Shown here: one piece after another, positions 1 to 36,787 of the stretch | How the letters are laid out: each line of letters starts with the position of its first letter | How positions within the stretch are numbered: the first letter of the stretch is position 1 | Source: Acidobacteriota bacterium | GTDB lineage: Bacteria > Acidobacteriota > Terriglobia > 20CM-2-55-15 | Assembly: GCA_022821145.1 (NCBI GenBank) | Contig: JAJEEE010000016.1 | Coordinates: 1-40,692, forward strand | DNA: 40,692 nt | Direction of reading: 5' to 3' | Made by a program: the position numbers and the translations under genes | The notes under the pieces: model-generated | Databases searched by the model: none | The model's input: only the letters and a program-made list of their open reading frames with translations | Told to the model about the DNA's origin: nothing

Positions 1-139
1 CAGCCACGGCGAGGAACGCCGCGGGTCCAATGGGGCATACGGTAATGTCTTGCTGATCGACTCCGTCTAGGCCTCCCCGCCCATCCGCCGATGCCCTAAC
101 CATCCCCAAGGTCCGCCACAAACTCGCGGGACCCTACAG
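1..139. repeat. Diverged left end of the 255-bp hairpin repeat array
   Basis: No gene is visible. The first ~45 bases hold an inverted hairpin (ACGGCG / loop / CGCCG type) followed by a TCCAATGGGGCATACGG stretch that matches, with changes, TCCAATTGGGCGTACGG inside the regular units at 140-649. The remainder (45-139) aligns poorly. It is read as an older, decayed copy of the inverted half of the repeat, so the array probably began upstream of the window. Confidence 0.55.
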
Positions 140-722
140 TAGTAGCCGCGGCGTTCCTCGCCGCGGCTGGACAACGAGCGAAGCGAGGCGTCAGTCCAAG
201 AAAACGATCTCGTCGTTCACGGTGTGGGCCCCTTGCGAGATCTCGGCTTGCTGACGCGGCGGCTCGGAGGCCGCCTTGTCCATCCGCGGCGCGGGACGCC
301 GCGGATCCAATTGGGCGTACGGCGATGTTTCGCGTCTCCCACAAGTCACGGCATGGCCCTCGATCCTACGCCGCCAACCTGCGGAACTCTCCTATAGTAG
401 TCGCGGCGTTCCTCGCCGCGGCTGGACAACGAGCGCAGCGAGCCGTCAGTGCAAGAAAACGATCTCTTCGTTCACGGTGTGGGCCCATTGCGAGATCTCG
501 GCTCGCTGACGCGGCGGCCCGGAGGCCGCCTTGTCCATCCGCGGCGGGGGACGCCGCGGATCCAATTGGGCGTACGGCGATGTTTCGCGTCTCCCACACG
601 TCACGGCATGGCCCTCGATCCTACCCCGCCAACCTGCGGAACTCTCCTATAGTAGTCGCGGCGTTCCTCGCCGCGGCTGGACAACGAGCGCAGCGAGGCG
701 TCAGTCCAAGAAAATGATCACT
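140..722. repeat. Tandem array, 255-bp period, paired inverted hairpins
   Basis: Three forward hairpins occur at exactly 255-bp spacing (cores near 147, 402 and 657). Each has stem CCGCGGCG or a near match, loop TTCCT, then stem CGCCGCGG, followed by a second weaker stem (TGGAC...GTCCA) and the tail GTCAGTCCAAGAAAA. Between them, units 140-394 and 395-649 carry an inverted hairpin (near 282 and 537), so each unit is a head-to-head pair. The third unit stops at about 722, just beyond the 3' end of the minus-strand gene ending at 756. The unit length is a multiple of three, so long spurious reading frames run through it; codon use and repetition argue against coding. Related single copies lie elsewhere in the window. 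Confidence 0.85.
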
Positions 723-755
723 TCAACGCCGACGCCCGGTCCCGCCCCGACGCTC

Positions 756-1253
756 TTACGCGACCGTCTTGAACTCGCCGCCGGCGAGCGACCGCTCGAT
801 GTCGGGGACTTGCGCATCGGCCGGATCGGCCACGCCCACCAGAACCCGGTCCTGGGAAGCCGACCGGTCATAGAAGGCGGGAAGCCGCCGTCCCAGGCCG
901 GCCGACCGGATCAACGCGATGACGGTGGCGACGATGGCCCCCAGCATCGTCAACTCGAACGCGACGATCAGGTTCGGCCAGACCGACACGATCGGCATGC
1001 CTCCTGTCCTCAACGGCCAGAGCAGTTGCGTCATCGAGGTCATCGACGCGCCGACGACGCATCCGATCACGCCTCCCAGCACGGCGAACCAGCCCATGCG
1101 CGCCGGTCTGTCCTGCGGGTCGTATCCGTGCGGCTCGAGCGGCTCGGGGGACATGACGACGATCGCCTCCCGCGGAATGCCCGCACCCGTCAGGGACGCG
1201 ACCGCGCGCTGCGCCTCGACCGGGTCCGAATACAGCGCGTAGGCCGCCTTCAC
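756..1253 (-). CDS. actD: ActD-like membrane subunit (DUF3341) of alternative complex III
   Basis: A 165-aa protein with two membrane helices (about residues 55-70 and 94-115) separated by a short loop, with soluble ends, which is the layout of DUF3341/ActD. ActD is a small integral subunit of alternative complex III (quinol:electron acceptor oxidoreductase). The N-terminal KAAYALYSDPVEAQRAV stretch resembles the family's start (a region recalling heavy-metal-associated ferredoxin-like folds). The start is GTG at 1253, inside a four-base GTGA overlap with the actC stop, which implies translational coupling. It is the last gene of the cluster: no actE (monoheme cytochrome) or actF (second NrfD-like subunit) follows, only the repeat array. 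Family assignment rests on length, helices and context. Confidence 0.8.
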   Translation of the reverse strand: MKAAYALYSDPVEAQRAVASLTGAGIPREAIVVMSPEPLEPHGYDPQDRPARMGWFAVLGGVIGCVVGASMTSMTQLLWPLRTGGMPIVSVWPNLIVAFELTMLGAIVATVIALIRSAGLGRRLPAFYDRSASQDRVLVGVADPADAQVPDIERSLAGGEFKTVA

Positions 1254-2626
1254 GACGCTTCTCCCCTCGCCGGCACGGGACCCGCGGCGGCATCCCGGGC
1301 CTCCGCCTCGACAATGTGCGGCGCGTCGTCCATGTCGTTTCCGGACTTCAGCTCCCAGATCGAAATGATCGGCACGAACTTGACGAACACGCAGTAGAGC
1401 AGCGCCATCGCCGCGAACGAGGCGACCATGACGACGATCTCGGTCCATCCCGGCGCGTACGAGCCCCAGGTATAGGGCAACTGCCGGTAGGACAGCGACG
1501 GGATCACGATGAGGAAACGCTCCAGCCACATGCCGACAACGACCCCCACAGAGGCGACGACGCACCCGGCGACCGTCCGCGTCCTCTTCGTCGACAGCAG
1601 CACCGCGGGGAGGACGAAGTTGCCGGCGACCATGATCCAGAACGCCGGCGCGTATTCGCCGGTGAACGTGGCCCAGAAGACGGGCATTTCGGTGATCTCG
1701 TTGCCGTACCAGACGGTCAGGCGTTCGGCGAACACGAAGTAGGCCCACAACAAGCTCATGGTCAGGAGCAGCTTTCCGAGCTTGTCGAAGTGGAGCGGCT
1801 GCAGGTACGCCTCCAGGCGCAGCAACCGGCGCAACAGGGCCATGGCGATGATCAGGGCGGCGATGCCGCTGAAGATCGCGCCGACGACGAAGTAGGGTCC
1901 GAAGATCGTCGAGTGCCACATCGGAACCACGGCCATCGCGAAGTCGAACGAGACGATCGTGTGCACGGACACGGCGATGGGAATGATCGCGATCGCCATG
2001 ATGTGCATGGCCGACTCGAGCCGGTTCCATTGGCGGGGCGTGCCCTGCCATCCCATGGCGAGCCAGCCGTAGATCGTTCTACGGATCCCGGAGGCGCGGT
2101 CCCGCACCAGCGCGAAGTCGGGGATCATCGGCAGGAACAGGAACAGCGTGCTGGCCAGCAGGTACGTGTTGATCGCGAAGAAGTCCCACATGAGCGGCGA
2201 GCGGAAGTTGGGCCAGAGTCCGCGCCCGTCGGGAAACGGAATCAGGTGGTAGAAGAGCCACGGGCGGCCCAGGTGAATCAGGGGCAACACGCCGCCGATC
2301 AGCAGCGCGAACGCCGTGATGGCCTCGGCGCATCGCGTGACGGGCCGCCGCCATCCGGCGTCGACGATGCGCAGAATGGCCGAGATCAGCGTGCCGGCGT
2401 GGCTGATGCCGATCCAGAAGACGAAGTTGACCAGGTAGAAACCCCAGAAGACCGGCGAGTTGAGGCCCGTCAGGCCGATGCCGGAGTACATCTGGACGGC
2501 CCAGGCCGCCACGCCCGCCGAGACGACGAGCATGAGCGCCGCGACCGTCAGGCGGTACCGCCTCGATGAGCCCTGCAGCGGCTTCAGCAACTCGTCGGTG
2601 ATGCGCTTATCCGCCGCCAGATTCAT
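1250..2626 (-). CDS. actC: ActC/NrfD-like quinone-interacting membrane subunit
   Basis: A 458-aa polytopic protein with about ten hydrophobic segments, typical of the NrfD/PsrC family that supplies the quinone site of complexes such as polysulfide reductase, Qrc and alternative complex III. Visible family features include the ISHAGTLISAILRI segment in the second helix, LIHLGRPWLFY after the third and VPMWHSTIFGPYFV in the middle. About 450-470 aa is usual for ActC. The start at 2626 overlaps the end of the upstream iron-sulfur gene by 20 bases; the stop overlaps actD. It should take electrons from, or give them to, the membrane quinone pool and pass them to the iron-sulfur subunit. ActC versus a Qrc/Psr-type homologue is decided by the neighbours, mainly actD and actA. 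Confidence 0.88.
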   Translation of the reverse strand: MNLAADKRITDELLKPLQGSSRRYRLTVAALMLVVSAGVAAWAVQMYSGIGLTGLNSPVFWGFYLVNFVFWIGISHAGTLISAILRIVDAGWRRPVTRCAEAITAFALLIGGVLPLIHLGRPWLFYHLIPFPDGRGLWPNFRSPLMWDFFAINTYLLASTLFLFLPMIPDFALVRDRASGIRRTIYGWLAMGWQGTPRQWNRLESAMHIMAIAIIPIAVSVHTIVSFDFAMAVVPMWHSTIFGPYFVVGAIFSGIAALIIAMALLRRLLRLEAYLQPLHFDKLGKLLLTMSLLWAYFVFAERLTVWYGNEITEMPVFWATFTGEYAPAFWIMVAGNFVLPAVLLSTKRTRTVAGCVVASVGVVVGMWLERFLIVIPSLSYRQLPYTWGSYAPGWTEIVVMVASFAAMALLYCVFVKFVPIISIWELKSGNDMDDAPHIVEAEARDAAAGPVPARGEAS

Positions 2627-3317
2627 CCCAGTCGCCTTTCTGGAGGTAGGTCACCGAGGGCTCGGCGCCCAACTCTTCCAGCAGCTTGCTTCCGCGGGGA
2701 GAGCGCGAGAGGCGCGACACGCGGCTGTCCGCATCGTCCAGGTCGCCGAAGACCAGGGCGTTCGCCGTGCACGACTGTGCGCACGCCGGCTGGAGCGTTC
2801 CGTCCTCGATGCGGCCTTCTTCGGTTTCGGCCCGGGCGTCGATGCGCGCGGCGTTGATCCGCTGGATGCAGAACGTGCACTTCTCCATCACGCCGACCTC
2901 GCGGACCGACACGTCCGGGTTCAACTGGAGGTCGAGCGGCCGGTCCCATTCCGGGTTGTGGAAGTTGAAGAACCGCACGTTGTAGGAACACGCGTTGGCG
3001 CAGTAGCGGGTTCCGATGCACCGGTTGTAGACCTGGGCGTTCAGGCCCTCGTCGGTGTGATAGCTGGCGTAGGTCGGACACACCGGCTCGCACGGCGCGT
3101 TGTCGCACTGCTGGCAGAAGACGGGCCGGAACGTCAGCCGGACGTCGGGGAACTCGCCCTCCCAGTAGCGTTCGACGCGGATCCAGTGCATCGCCCGACC
3201 CCGGGCGGCCTCCTCGGGTCCGACGGTCGGGATGTTGTTCTCGGCGTGGCACGCGGTCACGCAGGCTTCGCAGCCGGTGCACCGGTCCAGATCGACGGCC
3301 ATTCCCCATCTCGGCAT
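2607..3317 (-). CDS. ActB iron-sulfur half (separate gene, four Fe-S clusters)
   Basis: A 236-aa ferredoxin-like subunit with four cysteine groups: C13/C16/C19/C23, C68/C71/C76/C80, C100/C106/C110 and C147/C150/C179/C183. In the third group the second ligand position is Thr (CIGTRYC, T103), the pattern expected for a [3Fe-4S] cluster beside three [4Fe-4S] clusters, as known for the B2 domain of ActB. It would form the electron wire between ActC and the periplasmic subunits. In characterised ActB proteins this domain is fused behind the molybdopterin-like domain; here it is its own gene, starting nine bases after the stop of the upstream half. The ATG at 3317 was chosen because the ferredoxin motif begins at residue 13 and the frame upstream overlaps actB1. 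No Tat or Sec signal is seen, so it presumably travels with its partner. Confidence 0.85.
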   Translation of the reverse strand: MPRWGMAVDLDRCTGCEACVTACHAENNIPTVGPEEAARGRAMHWIRVERYWEGEFPDVRLTFRPVFCQQCDNAPCEPVCPTYASYHTDEGLNAQVYNRCIGTRYCANACSYNVRFFNFHNPEWDRPLDLQLNPDVSVREVGVMEKCTFCIQRINAARIDARAETEEGRIEDGTLQPACAQSCTANALVFGDLDDADSRVSRLSRSPRGSKLLEELGAEPSVTYLQKGDWDESGGG

Positions 3318-3325
3318 GACGACTC

Positions 3326-5569
3326 CTATCGCTCCAGGTCCGGGTGCTCCCGCAACGCGCCGCCGAACCGGACCAGATCTCCGGCGCCCTCGAGGCGCGC
3401 GATCGTCACCCGCGTGGCCGCCCAGGCCCAGCCGCCCGTTTCGGGTTCGACCGTCGGCGCCAGAACCCGAACAGGGTTCGCGCCCCGCCCCGTCGCGTAC
3501 CGGGTGAAGTTCTCGTGGCCCTGCCCCATGGGCATTGCGACGGCGTCGGGCGCAATCCCCGGGAAGATCAGCGCCGGCGCCTGGAGGGCGCCGTGCGCGG
3601 AGCGGACCTCCACCAGGTCGCCCGCCTCGACGCCCAGCTCGGCCGCCGTGCGCGGGTTCAACTCCACCCAACTGCTCCACATCGCCGTCGTCACAACGTC
3701 CGGAAGCTCCTGCAGCCACGGCAGATGCGCCAGCGAACCGTCCAGGAACGCCTGCGATACATACGGCAGGAAGTGGAACGGGTAGGCGTCGGCGCCGCCG
3801 TCGAACTCAGGCGCGGCATACGCCCTGGGCCGAACGTCCGGGAACGACGCCGGCTCCGGGACCGGAGCTTCGGGCCCGATCCAGACGCCGTTGGCCTGGG
3901 CGGCGATCCAGGCGCTGTCGAAGCCTTCGGGCGGAGGCAGCGCCTCGAACCGCTCGCGCGCCACGTCTTCGTAGGTCTCCCACTCCGTGGGCAGGTCGAG
4001 CGCGAGACGCCGTCCGACGTCGAGCATAACGTCGGCCATGTCTCGCGTGTCGTGCAGTGGACGCATGGCCGGACGCGCGGCGCTGGCGGCGGCGCGCGCC
4101 GTGCCGGCCTCGGGAACGTGGTCGACGAGAGCTTCCAGGAAGGAATGGTCGGGAAGGATCAGGTCGGCCATGGCGCTGGTCTCGTCCTGGAATGAGCCGA
4201 ACGACGCGATGAATCCGACACGAGCCAGCGCTTCGCCGACCCCCCACGCGGGGGGCGCGCCGAAGACGGGATTCGCGTCGTGAACCAGGAGCACGTCGAC
4301 GGGAGGCGCGCCCCCGGCCGGCGTCTCCAGTATCGATCGGGCCAGGGTCTCGATCGTCTCGCCCGCCGCGTCGAGCCCCCGCAACCCCTCGAGAACGGGC
4401 GTGAACCGCACGCCCCCGGGGACGCCCACGCTCCCGGCCAGCGCGTTCAGCGCGTTCACGGCCAGGGCGTTGAACAGGCCGTTGGTCTGGGCGAGCGGGA
4501 CGCCGGCGATCACGGCGATGGCGGGCCCGTTGTCGGCGAACTCCCGTCCGAGCTGTTCGACCGTAGCGGCGGGCACGCCGGTCACCTGTTCCACAGCCTC
4601 GGCGGCATAAGCCTGAAGGCCGTCGGACCACCCTTCGATCAACTCTCCGGCGCGGCCGCCGTCGGACGGGGACCGCCGGCCCGACGCCAGGATCGCCCGG
4701 GCCATGCCCAGGGCCAGGAACCCTTCGGTCCCGGGCCGGGCCGCCACCCACTGGTCTGAGTTCGCGCCGGTCTGGGACATGCGGAACTCGACCTGGACGA
4801 ACTTCCCGCGGATGCCCGGACGCCCCTGCCGCAACTCGCCGTAACCGACGCTCTGGGCGACGGGCGAGTTCCATGTCCCCAGGATGTCGGCGCCGAACGA
4901 AACGACGTAGCGCGATTGGGCGATGTCCAGCGTCGGGAGCTGGTGGAACCCGAAGCTCTCCAGGTTGGCCTGACGCAGCACCGCATCGCCGAACAGGTCG
5001 ACCACGACAGGCGCCGGCGCCCCGAATCGCTCGAGGAACTCGGAAATCACGACGCCGCGCCGGCTTCGCAACGGACGCGTCAGGAACCGGAGTCCGCGCG
5101 GGTCTCCGTCCTGAAGCAAGGCCTCGAGCCGCGCGGCCAACTCGGCGAGGGCCTCGTCCCACGAGACCGGCGCGAACGCCCCCGAGCCGCGATCGCCCGT
5201 CCGGCGCAACGGCTGGCGAACGCGGTCGGGATGATACGTCACCTGAATGGCCGCCTGCCCGCGAGCGCAGAGCCGCCCCCGGTTGACCGGATGCCCCGGC
5301 AGGCCCTCGAGCTTCTTGGCCAAGCCCTTCTTGACGATGCCCCGCACGCCGTCTCGAACCACCTCGACGTCGCCTTCCATCACGCGCACTTCCACGCCGC
5401 AGCCGGCCGGACACAGCGGGCAGACGCTGCGGCGCGTGACGGCCAGCCCTGGCGGCAGCGGCTCGTCGGAAATGAATCGTACGAGCTGCTCTTCCGGGTT
5501 TCCGCAAGCGGCGAGCGACGCCGACGCGCCGCTGATCGCGGTGGCCTTGACGAATTGTCGGCGGTCCAT
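3326..5569 (-). CDS. ActB molybdopterin-oxidoreductase-like half (Tat-exported)
   Basis: A 747-aa member of the molybdopterin oxidoreductase (DMSO reductase) superfamily. The N-terminus has a twin-arginine signal (RRQFVK, residues 3-8) followed by a hydrophobic stretch and a lipobox-like LAACG (C22), so it is probably exported folded and may be lipid-anchored. Residues C50, C53, C57 and C101 (CPLCPAGC ... GRLC) form the classical N-terminal [4Fe-4S] motif. The segment SFGADILGTWNSPV, where catalytic family members carry the Mo ligand, has no Cys/Sec there, as in ActB/QrcB-type structural subunits. ATG 5569 is preferred because the Tat motif follows directly. It lies 14 bases after actA. Likely role: large periplasmic scaffold subunit of an alternative-complex-III/Qrc-type quinone oxidoreductase; true Mo catalysis is unlikely but not excluded. 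Confidence 0.83.
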   Translation of the reverse strand: MDRRQFVKATAISGASASLAACGNPEEQLVRFISDEPLPPGLAVTRRSVCPLCPAGCGVEVRVMEGDVEVVRDGVRGIVKKGLAKKLEGLPGHPVNRGRLCARGQAAIQVTYHPDRVRQPLRRTGDRGSGAFAPVSWDEALAELAARLEALLQDGDPRGLRFLTRPLRSRRGVVISEFLERFGAPAPVVVDLFGDAVLRQANLESFGFHQLPTLDIAQSRYVVSFGADILGTWNSPVAQSVGYGELRQGRPGIRGKFVQVEFRMSQTGANSDQWVAARPGTEGFLALGMARAILASGRRSPSDGGRAGELIEGWSDGLQAYAAEAVEQVTGVPAATVEQLGREFADNGPAIAVIAGVPLAQTNGLFNALAVNALNALAGSVGVPGGVRFTPVLEGLRGLDAAGETIETLARSILETPAGGAPPVDVLLVHDANPVFGAPPAWGVGEALARVGFIASFGSFQDETSAMADLILPDHSFLEALVDHVPEAGTARAAASAARPAMRPLHDTRDMADVMLDVGRRLALDLPTEWETYEDVARERFEALPPPEGFDSAWIAAQANGVWIGPEAPVPEPASFPDVRPRAYAAPEFDGGADAYPFHFLPYVSQAFLDGSLAHLPWLQELPDVVTTAMWSSWVELNPRTAAELGVEAGDLVEVRSAHGALQAPALIFPGIAPDAVAMPMGQGHENFTRYATGRGANPVRVLAPTVEPETGGWAWAATRVTIARLEGAGDLVRFGGALREHPDLER

Positions 5570-15351: not shown

Positions 15352-15593
15352 GTCGCGGCGAGGAACGTCGAGACTACGGCCGGGGAGTTCCGGAAGTTCG
15401 CGGCCAAACACTCGGCGCCGGTCTTGGCGTCGGAAGGTCCAGGGCGATGCCACGACGCGGTGGGCACGCGAAACGTTCCCTCAATCCCCATCGGACCCGC
15501 GGCGTCCCTCGCCGCGGGTGGTCAACGCGCCCATGGCATAGCCATGGACGTGGTGGAGCGAGGCCTCAGTCCTGGAATATATCTCTTCAACGC
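15352..15593. repeat. Full-length dispersed composite hairpin repeat
   Basis: The 300-base gap between phoH and the tRNA gene holds a diverged but complete copy of the unit found at 140-649. In order: inverted hairpin arm (GCGGCGAGGAACG then GACTAC), spacer with GAGTTCCGGAAG, GATGCC and ACGCGAAAC matching the array's reverse complement, forward hairpin at 15496-15518 (CCCGCGGCG, TCCCT, CGCCGCGGG) and a tail GAGGCCTCAGTCC. The spacer, not only the hairpins, is shared, so this is a roughly 240-bp mobile-like element rather than a chance hairpin. Confidence 0.7.
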
Positions 15594-15656: not shown

Positions 15657-15705
15657 CGTGGCGGAGCCCGCCGAACGAGCTCCCGCCTTGCGTTTGCGGC
15701 GATCC

Positions 15706-15792
15706 GGAGAGATGTCCGAGAGGCCGAAGGAGCACGCTTGGAAAGCGTGTGTGGGGGTAACTCCACCGTGGGTTCGAATCCCACTCTCTCCG
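15706..15792 (+). tRNA. tRNA-Ser (GGA)
   Basis: An 87-nt class II tRNA with all stems paired: acceptor GGAGAGA/TCTCTCC, D arm TCCGAGAGGCCGAAGGA, anticodon arm CACGC-TTGGAAA-GCGTG with anticodon GGA, long variable arm (TGGGGGTAACTCCACC), T arm GTGGG-TTCGAAT-CCCAC and discriminator G. CCA is not encoded. It reads UCC/UCU serine codons. A second, mismatched copy lies 1110 bases downstream. Confidence 0.97.
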
Positions 15793-15986
15793 TTCTATGT
15801 CGGATGTAACTCTATTATTTACAATATTTTGTGAATAACAGATGAGTAGATAGCCCACATTTTAACCCCTATTGTTTGCATCCCGTTCGCACCCGTTGGC
15901 GGCAACCACCTCCGCGGAAAAACGGGTACTGTCCCGGTACCGTTTGGACGGGATGATCATGCAGGTGGCAACCGTCCCCGGACAAT
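15793..15986. other. AT-rich intergenic patch behind tRNA-Ser
   Basis: The first ~90 bases after the tRNA are markedly AT-rich (ATTATTTACAATATTTTGTG and similar), unlike the rest of the window. The remainder contains GGTACTGTCCCGGTACC, a short imperfect palindrome. No gene, integrase fragment or RNA is recognised. The base composition and position directly at a tRNA 3' end suggest acquired DNA. Confidence 0.45.
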
Positions 15987-16767: not shown

Positions 16768-16815
16768 CGTCGTGGAGTTCCCTTGGGGATCTTCCCCATG
16801 CGTTCCCGGCGATCC

Positions 16816-16902
16816 GGAGCGATGTCCGAGAGGCCGAAGGAGCACACTTGGAAAGCGTGTGTGGGGGTAACTCCACCGTGGGTTCGAATCCCACTCTCTC
16901 CG
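16816..16902 (+). pseudogene. Degenerate second copy of tRNA-Ser (GGA)
   Basis: An 87-nt copy identical to the tRNA at 15706-15792 except for a few bases. Two changes break stems: acceptor GGAGCGA now gives C opposite T at the fifth pair, and the anticodon stem CACAC/GCGTG has an A opposite C. Anticodon GGA, variable arm and T arm are unchanged. It may still be charged weakly, but two uncompensated mismatches suggest decay. An annotation program would probably score it as a low-quality tRNA-Ser. Confidence 0.7.
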
Positions 16903-16966
16903 TCTGTGACGGGTTCGCGATGCTCGGCAGCGTGAGTCTGCCGAGACAGAGACGCCGTAATTCGCC

Positions 16967-28630: not shown

Positions 28631-28710
28631 CTTTTTTTCCTGGACTTTCGCCTCGGCTACCGCGTCGTTGCCCGCCCGCGGCGAGGAACGCCGCGGGTCC
28701 GATGGGGCTC
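28631..28710 (-). repeat. Dispersed hairpin repeat between mreC and mreD
   Basis: In the minus orientation: CCCGCGGCG, TTCCT, CGCCGCGGG (28675-28697), then GGCAACGACGCGGTAGCCG, AGGCG and AAGTCCAGGAAAA, matching the forward half of the array at 140-722. It fills part of the 281-base gap 28561-28841, which otherwise has no recognisable gene. Confidence 0.75.
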
Positions 28711-28841
28711 ACGCATCGTGGATTCCATGACTTGTAGGTCTGGGGGCCACCGGTGTTTTCCGAGTCACGTCCGAACTCGCCCTCGTTTCTGGGACCCGTT
28801 TGCCGTCCTCATCTCCTGTCGTGAGCCTGGGTGACACGACA

Positions 28842-36537: not shown

Positions 36538-36717
36538 GACGGTCTCCTCCTCGAGGTCGGGTTGACGCGGCCGAATCGGTCCCCTTTCTACACTTCGCCG
36601 AAATCGGTGTCAACCGGGCCCCGGACGGGCATCCCGCCCCAAGAGGGAACGTCTCTCGCTGTCGTCGGTGACGGCGCAACGTCACAGGGCGCGGGAAACC
36701 TCCCCAAGTGTTCCTCG

Positions 36718-36787
36718 GTACCCGCGGCGTTCCTCGCCGCGGGTGAACAACGAGGCGGTCGCCGAGGCGTCAGTCCAAGAAAATGAC
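36718..36787 (+). repeat. Dispersed hairpin repeat between SLC13 gene and cstA
   Basis: CCCGCGGCG, TTCCT, CGCCGCGGG (36721-36743), then GTGAACAACGAGGCGGTCG and the tail GAGGCGTCAGTCCAAGAAAA, the closest match to the array tail at 700-722. As there, the tail points to the 3' end of a minus-strand gene 45 bases away. The rest of 36538-36832 has nothing recognisable apart from the cstA leader. Confidence 0.8.

Follow-up and report, generated by a model that had tools for sequence, protein, structure and literature searches.

A tandem array in an Acidobacteriota genome is probably one cluster of a genus-restricted family of two-hairpin, REP/BIME-like repeats

Introduction

The window, which is the whole 40,692-nt stretch of DNA analyzed here (contig JAJEEE010000016.1 of an Acidobacteriota bacterium), opens with a tandem array of inverted hairpins that ends close to the convergent gene actD. 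Such an array could be a mobile repeat, a conserved RNA structure, a site used by other mobile DNA, a coding repeat or the scar of a rearrangement, and we asked which of these it is. The host genome is called G000 and the second member of the genus G001.

Results

Layout of the array

The first-pass annotation described a 255-bp array of paired inverted hairpins, and three measurements agreed with it. TRF reported a tandem array at 140–724 (period 255, 2.3 copies, 95% matches), a repeat search aligned 114–368 with 369–623 at 93% identity and placed a third copy of 99 nt at 626–724, and the hairpin-1 stems start at 144, 399 and 654 on the + strand, exactly 255 apart, and at 306 and 561 on the − strand. 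In the array, three A half-elements are separated by two B half-elements of inverted orientation; these, the neighboring gene and the other half-elements of the window are located as follows.

1–28, − strand: hairpin 1 (2–26) of an additional A half-element at the start of the contig; the model match for the same half-element lies on an overlapping contig (G000:C63:69824–69907)
130–212, + strand: A half-element 1, with hairpin 1 at 144–168 (loop TTCCT), GGACAA, hairpin 2, GCGTCAG and tail; model match 130–199
216–320, − strand: B half-element 1, inverted, with hairpin 1 at 282–306, hairpin 2 GGCGGCCTCCGAGCCGCC and GCGTCAG; model match 246–320
385–467, + strand: A half-element 2; model match 385–454
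471–575, − strand: B half-element 2, inverted; folds alone according to the consensus structure, plus a small third hairpin
640–724, + strand: A half-element 3; model match 640–709; ends ~30 bp from the actD stop
756–1253, − strand: actD (PF11821), the last act gene, transcribed toward the array; listed for context, outside the element
15481–15574, + strand: single half-element; model match
28640–28712, − strand: single half-element; model match
36706–36778, + strand: single half-element; model match; agrees with its G001 orthologue (L094) at 70 of 73 positions

Two tRNA-Ser genes, both with anticodon GGA, lie ~1.1 kb apart at 15705–15793 and 16815–16904, and a single element ends ~130 bp ahead of the first.

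The array extends beyond the contig start, the last 153 bases of contig C63 matching window positions 1–153 at 144 of 153. The suggestion that it adjoins an incomplete act operon and may mark a rearrangement was not borne out. actD is also the last act gene in G001, G004, G009 and G010, and in the last three it is followed by opposite-strand genes (EngA-like GTPase, MerR, SurE) and no act genes; a short ORF after actD in G004 had no Pfam match. In G001, actD faces a convergent PPIase/TPR gene over a gap of ~170 bp, where a tail-like remnant was seen by eye and the model found no element at E up to 0.02. Because C63 ends with the PPIase/TPR gene and overlaps window 1–153, the array occupies the convergent gap that G001 also has. 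Since the operon ends at actD in relatives and the gap is shared with G001, the array marks no rearrangement.

Structure of the half-element

Each half-element follows one plan: GGACAA links a 10-bp hairpin to a second, variable hairpin, which is followed by GCGTCAG and a short tail. Type A has a short head mostly ending in GT or GG, the 10-bp stem with loop TTCCT, and a tail like TCCAAGAAAATGATCTCTTC; type B follows the same plan with a loop that is mostly TCCCC and hairpin 2 GGCGGCCTCCGGGCCGCC. The unit is about 85–90 bp, beyond which conservation dropped to background (44 of 47 single elements, the other three being too near a contig end). The first-pass statement that the repeat is much larger than REP/BIME elements holds for the composite unit. 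Several single elements form a subfamily with longer common flanks (around TCATGGAATCCACTAT and GATCCGTTGAATCAAGCGCACGAACTCGTG), and some units are therefore longer than 90 bp. In three B elements (L044:2226, L044:2452 and L062:2046), the two hairpins were apparently fused into one by deletion.

A loose hairpin scan gave 595 matches, mostly chance, and was replaced by a stricter set of 127 cores (129 minus two non-elements removed by hand, L060:1569 and L071:6252), 93 of them from G000. Hairpin 1 of these cores, which were pre-selected to have 8 or more of 10 positions paired and whose pairing counts should be read accordingly, contained 1212 Watson-Crick, 10 G-T and 48 mismatched cells. The hairpin-1 loop was TTCCT in 99 of the 127, and the foot was GTAG in 57, GGAC in 27, GTAC in 26 and GTGG in 1, with a fourth base that pairs and covaries.

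Covariation was counted on 50 aligned cores. Of all cells, 89.6% were paired, against 25–54% in slid-pairing controls, and changes affecting both sides were counted in 81 cells, the shuffled mean being 30.1; in neither case did any of 500 shuffles reach as high. Two of the five measures did not clearly exceed shuffles: the number of pairs with a double change (7; 42/500 shuffles as high) and of further pair types (16; 223/500). Around hairpin 2, GAC and the GTC of GCGTCAG form base pairs, the commonest pair occurring in 46, 46 and 50 of the 50 cores. In hairpin 2 of many A copies, GA lies opposite GA at positions where other copies show GC opposite GC, which may be read as tandem G-A pairs; these positions were scored as unpaired in the covariation count.

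Folded alone as RNA, the − strand of 140–724 had z = −5.45, with 0/100 shuffles equally stable. As single-stranded DNA, the B half folded as drawn (z −3.8) and two other singles had z −2.9 and −6.5, while one A half of the window (z −1.1) folded no better than shuffles.

Distribution of the family

A covariance model identified at least 149 half-elements in 82 clusters of G000; the number is a floor because 150 candidates were scored in this search. One-unit BLAST hit 87 places in the same genome. Copies outside the window, which the first-pass annotation presumed, thus exist in quantity. Forty-seven clusters are single and 35 hold two to six halves, mostly alternating in orientation (exceptions include L044, L050 and L063), and the 82 counts clusters cut by contig ends separately, as with the window array and C63.

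A core pattern allowing up to two mismatches matched 67 + 58 times in G000, 23 + 22 times in G001 and had no match in 397 further genomes sampled from the class, and the reversed-pattern control gave zero in every genome. A model search of relatives, in which the filters were stricter and 80 candidates per genome were scored, returned at least 80 half-elements in G000, at least 57 in G001 and none in 59 other relatives. Among contigs of GTDB species the exact pattern occurred in 19 stretches, 18 in MAG p16x33bins.48 (taken as G001) and one contig of p16x33bins.71, which was judged mis-binned; the exact pattern was not found in viral contigs. Record JAJEEA010000122.1 (L099) was taken as a mis-binned contig and not as a third host, because it carries all 5 model matches of its 6.6-Mb assembly and outside its intron (see below) mostly matches G000 at 90–98%. 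A single match in G054, inside an ORF called coding (L023:1217–1879), was taken as chance. Among the genomes sampled the family is genus-restricted, being present in both genus members examined.

At gathering score, Rfam reported only SRP RNA and two tRNAs in the whole window, none over the array, and on 1–760 with E up to 1 it gave weak matches far below gathering scores. A literature search of open-licence papers found no description of this repeat family.

The likeness to a REP/BIME composite proposed from the window alone extends to the genome: many palindromic copies are dispersed, extragenic and arranged in alternating inverted dimers or clusters. We consider it likely that the array belongs, as one of many clusters, to a genus-specific family of REP/BIME-like extragenic repeats.

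Change between the two species

Array length differs between the relatives, as the first-pass annotation anticipated. At one site whose two versions are 96–98% identical, G000 (L039) has one unit more than G001 (L072), giving a gap of 281 alignment columns, and different arrays occupy two other orthologous gaps (L046 versus L074/L076; L049 versus L093/L157). The sole site filled in G001 (L078) and empty in G000 (L057) differs by 193 bp; no clear target duplication was seen there, and the difference may be a deletion rather than an insertion.

Six orthologous single sites were compared, of which four were nearly unchanged. At L047/L098, hairpin 1 shows a compensatory substitution of T:A for C:G, both sides of the stem being changed; at L211/L155, hairpin 2 has been replaced by a different hairpin and a hairpin-1 pair is broken in the G000 copy (L211). 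Cores were not clearly better conserved than flanks at the six sites. Neighboring genes differ on the two sides of elements at L071 (versus L034/L040) and L099 (versus L205/L214/L064), which may reflect recombination or assembly chimaeras; these sites were left out of the analysis.

Genomic context and a possible RNA function

Genes were called with a custom script trained on six window genes, on which the distances to genes below rest. At score cut-off 15, none of the 149 half-elements overlapped a called gene, though 83% of those loci were called coding; at lower cut-offs, two were overlapped at 10 and at 8 and four at 5, by short low-scoring ORFs. Of 66 clusters with both neighbors known, 40 lie in tandem, 16 in divergent and 10 in convergent gaps. 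The upstream gene's 3′ end is the closer neighbor for 29 of the 40 clusters that lie between genes of the same direction (binomial p = 0.006; median distances 66.5 versus 161.5 bp). Tails pointing to gene 3′ ends were a trend only (43/69, p = 0.053), as they were among tandem singles (16/25, p = 0.23).

Other REPs are scarce in divergent gaps. Such scarcity is without support here, because neither divergent (16/66 versus 11/28, p = 0.21) nor convergent gaps (10/66 versus 2/28, p = 0.50) differ significantly from the background, which is small.

An element lies within 500 bp of 16 of the 178 contig ends, and 37 of the 149 half-elements, including those at the window start, are that near an end. 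The repeats break short-read assemblies of G000, and gene neighborhoods at contig ends therefore need care.

The 3′ proximity in same-direction gaps, together with the covariation and the constant TTCCT loop, could suggest a functional RNA, that is, structures kept near mRNA 3′ ends for stability or termination and no longer mobile. We consider this unlikely. Ten G-T against 1212 Watson-Crick cells, in cores chosen for pairing, suit pairing at the DNA level at least as well; a terminator-like site was not found in window 1–800; no Rfam family reached gathering score over the array; and nearly a quarter of the clusters with known neighbors lie in divergent gaps.

The Y1-type gene as candidate mobilizer

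If REP/BIME-like repeats, the elements might be canonical REPs or REPINs, cut and pasted by the genome's own RAYT-type (Y1) protein. A single Y1_Tnp gene occurs in each of G000 and G001; in G000, where it is the sole Pfam Y1_Tnp match, its HUH and Y motifs read NHVH and YVERNP. A GTAG foot is present in 57 of the 127 hairpins. The tie to a RAYT raised by the first-pass annotation nevertheless weakened on inspection: the gene has the same neighbors in both genomes and no element was found beside it in L070 (8 kb) or L153 (3.5 kb; best model score in these searches 11 bits, E 0.07). A Y1 gene is present in 9 of 11 genomes of the taxonomic family, while the repeat was found in the two genus members only, and the fourth base of the hairpin foot pairs and varies. 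The protein barely matches E. coli TnpA-REP (4er8; E 0.3), and it has WH where the four REP-linked subclasses keep WQ, or WE in 2.2, in the available sections of PMC6006769. Mobilization of the family by this protein is accordingly doubtful.

By its Y---NP motif the gene would belong to class 2 of PMC6006769, a placement by motifs alone that fits no row of the published table exactly. The same sections of that paper place no REPs near subclass 2.1 and link class 3, found in Acidobacteria among others, to atypical hairpins. Acidobacteria transposases flanked by other inverted repeats are mentioned in the portion of PMC3733652 consulted, and REPs were counted with a general tool in three other Acidobacteriota in that of PMC12306157.

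For the REP/BIME-like family preferred here, single units would spread by copying of a single-stranded hairpin, through an HUH/Y1-type or a host enzyme and perhaps during replication, and arrays would grow and shrink through recombination or slippage between units. Copies would be tolerated immediately downstream of genes. Any that are transcribed would place their hairpins in the 3′ part of the mRNA and may protect or terminate that mRNA, a role also proposed for REPs.

Intron and integrase islands between the hairpins

Four copies are interrupted by, or abut, other DNA. In L099, a group II intron (1619–3495; RF02001, with reverse transcriptase and maturase domains) lies between the two hairpins of an A element, flanked by hairpin 1 plus GGGCAACG on one side and by AGGCGGTAGCC and the rest of the element on the other. 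Class C group II introns insert behind hairpins. In L058, foreign DNA (2140–3591) with an integrase gene (PF00589) follows a B element cut at the end of GGACAAGGCG. In L044, foreign DNA (1–1997) abuts GGACAAGG between the hairpins of a B element, and an integrase remnant there shares 41% identity with the L058 integrase over 41 residues; in L060, foreign DNA from about 2133 abuts GGACAAGG of a B element, as judged by eye.

These junctions could mean that the repeats are an attachment-site family, seeded by the integrases and introns that use GGACAA[C/G]G between the hairpins. We hold this very unlikely: the four copies were noticed without a systematic search, the integrase side joins opposite element halves in L058 and L044, and the RF02001 intron was not found elsewhere in G000 or G001. 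Less improbable, and put forward tentatively, is a REP-like family with two covarying hairpins per unit that spreads by means other than a linked RAYT and whose inter-hairpin strand group II introns and integrase-bearing islands may both use as a landing site.

Coding potential

That the repeat encodes protein has a negligible probability: an ORF at 325–717 (130 aa, ending GVSPRK) is open through the array, but copies 1 and 2 differ in that frame by 2 synonymous and 14 non-synonymous codon changes, and the periods of other arrays break the frame. Same-orientation spacings in other clusters are 246 to 311, plus 227 in L044, and often break the multiple of three, so the open frame is an accident of the window array. 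The first-pass warning of false proteins was justified, and open frames through such arrays are mistakable for small proteins. The half-element is a non-coding unit of two hairpins, in whose stems base pairing is conserved.

Discussion

The family is best filed as a new, genus-restricted, two-hairpin variant of REP/BIME-type repeats. The genus, in which one genome has about 150 copies, a related genome is available for comparison and the structure covaries, is usable as a test case, and REP-like repeats without a linked transposase, as the CGTC REPs are in the sections of PMC3733652 available, raise the question of what copies them.

Comparison with known systems, as described in the available parts of the cited papers, shows both shared and differing features. 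REPs, BIMEs and REPINs with RAYTs in Escherichia and Pseudomonas (PMC2817692, PMC3116915) are likewise intergenic, many-copy hairpin units in alternating inverted pairs or arrays near gene 3′ ends. Each REP unit, however, holds one palindrome of 20–40 bp (PMC3733652), whereas here two hairpins make up 85–90 bp, the GT[AG]G foot is not an invariant unpaired motif (GTAG in 57/127 only), the RAYT gene has no flanking repeat and the family was seen in one genus only. CGTC-tagged REPs (PMC3733652) also lack a linked transposase, and the family here has a conserved GCGTCAG; in those REPs, the CGTC tag is unpaired and flanks one end of a single 8–9 bp stem, whereas here the GTC pairs with GAC. Class 3 TnpAY1, with atypical structures in about 600 copies in Solibacter usitatus (PMC6006769), shares the many hairpins and the phylum; it has the foot CnGA, a linked Y1 gene and a Y motif ending in EQ, whereas the Y1 gene here has YVERNP and stands without family hairpins beside it.
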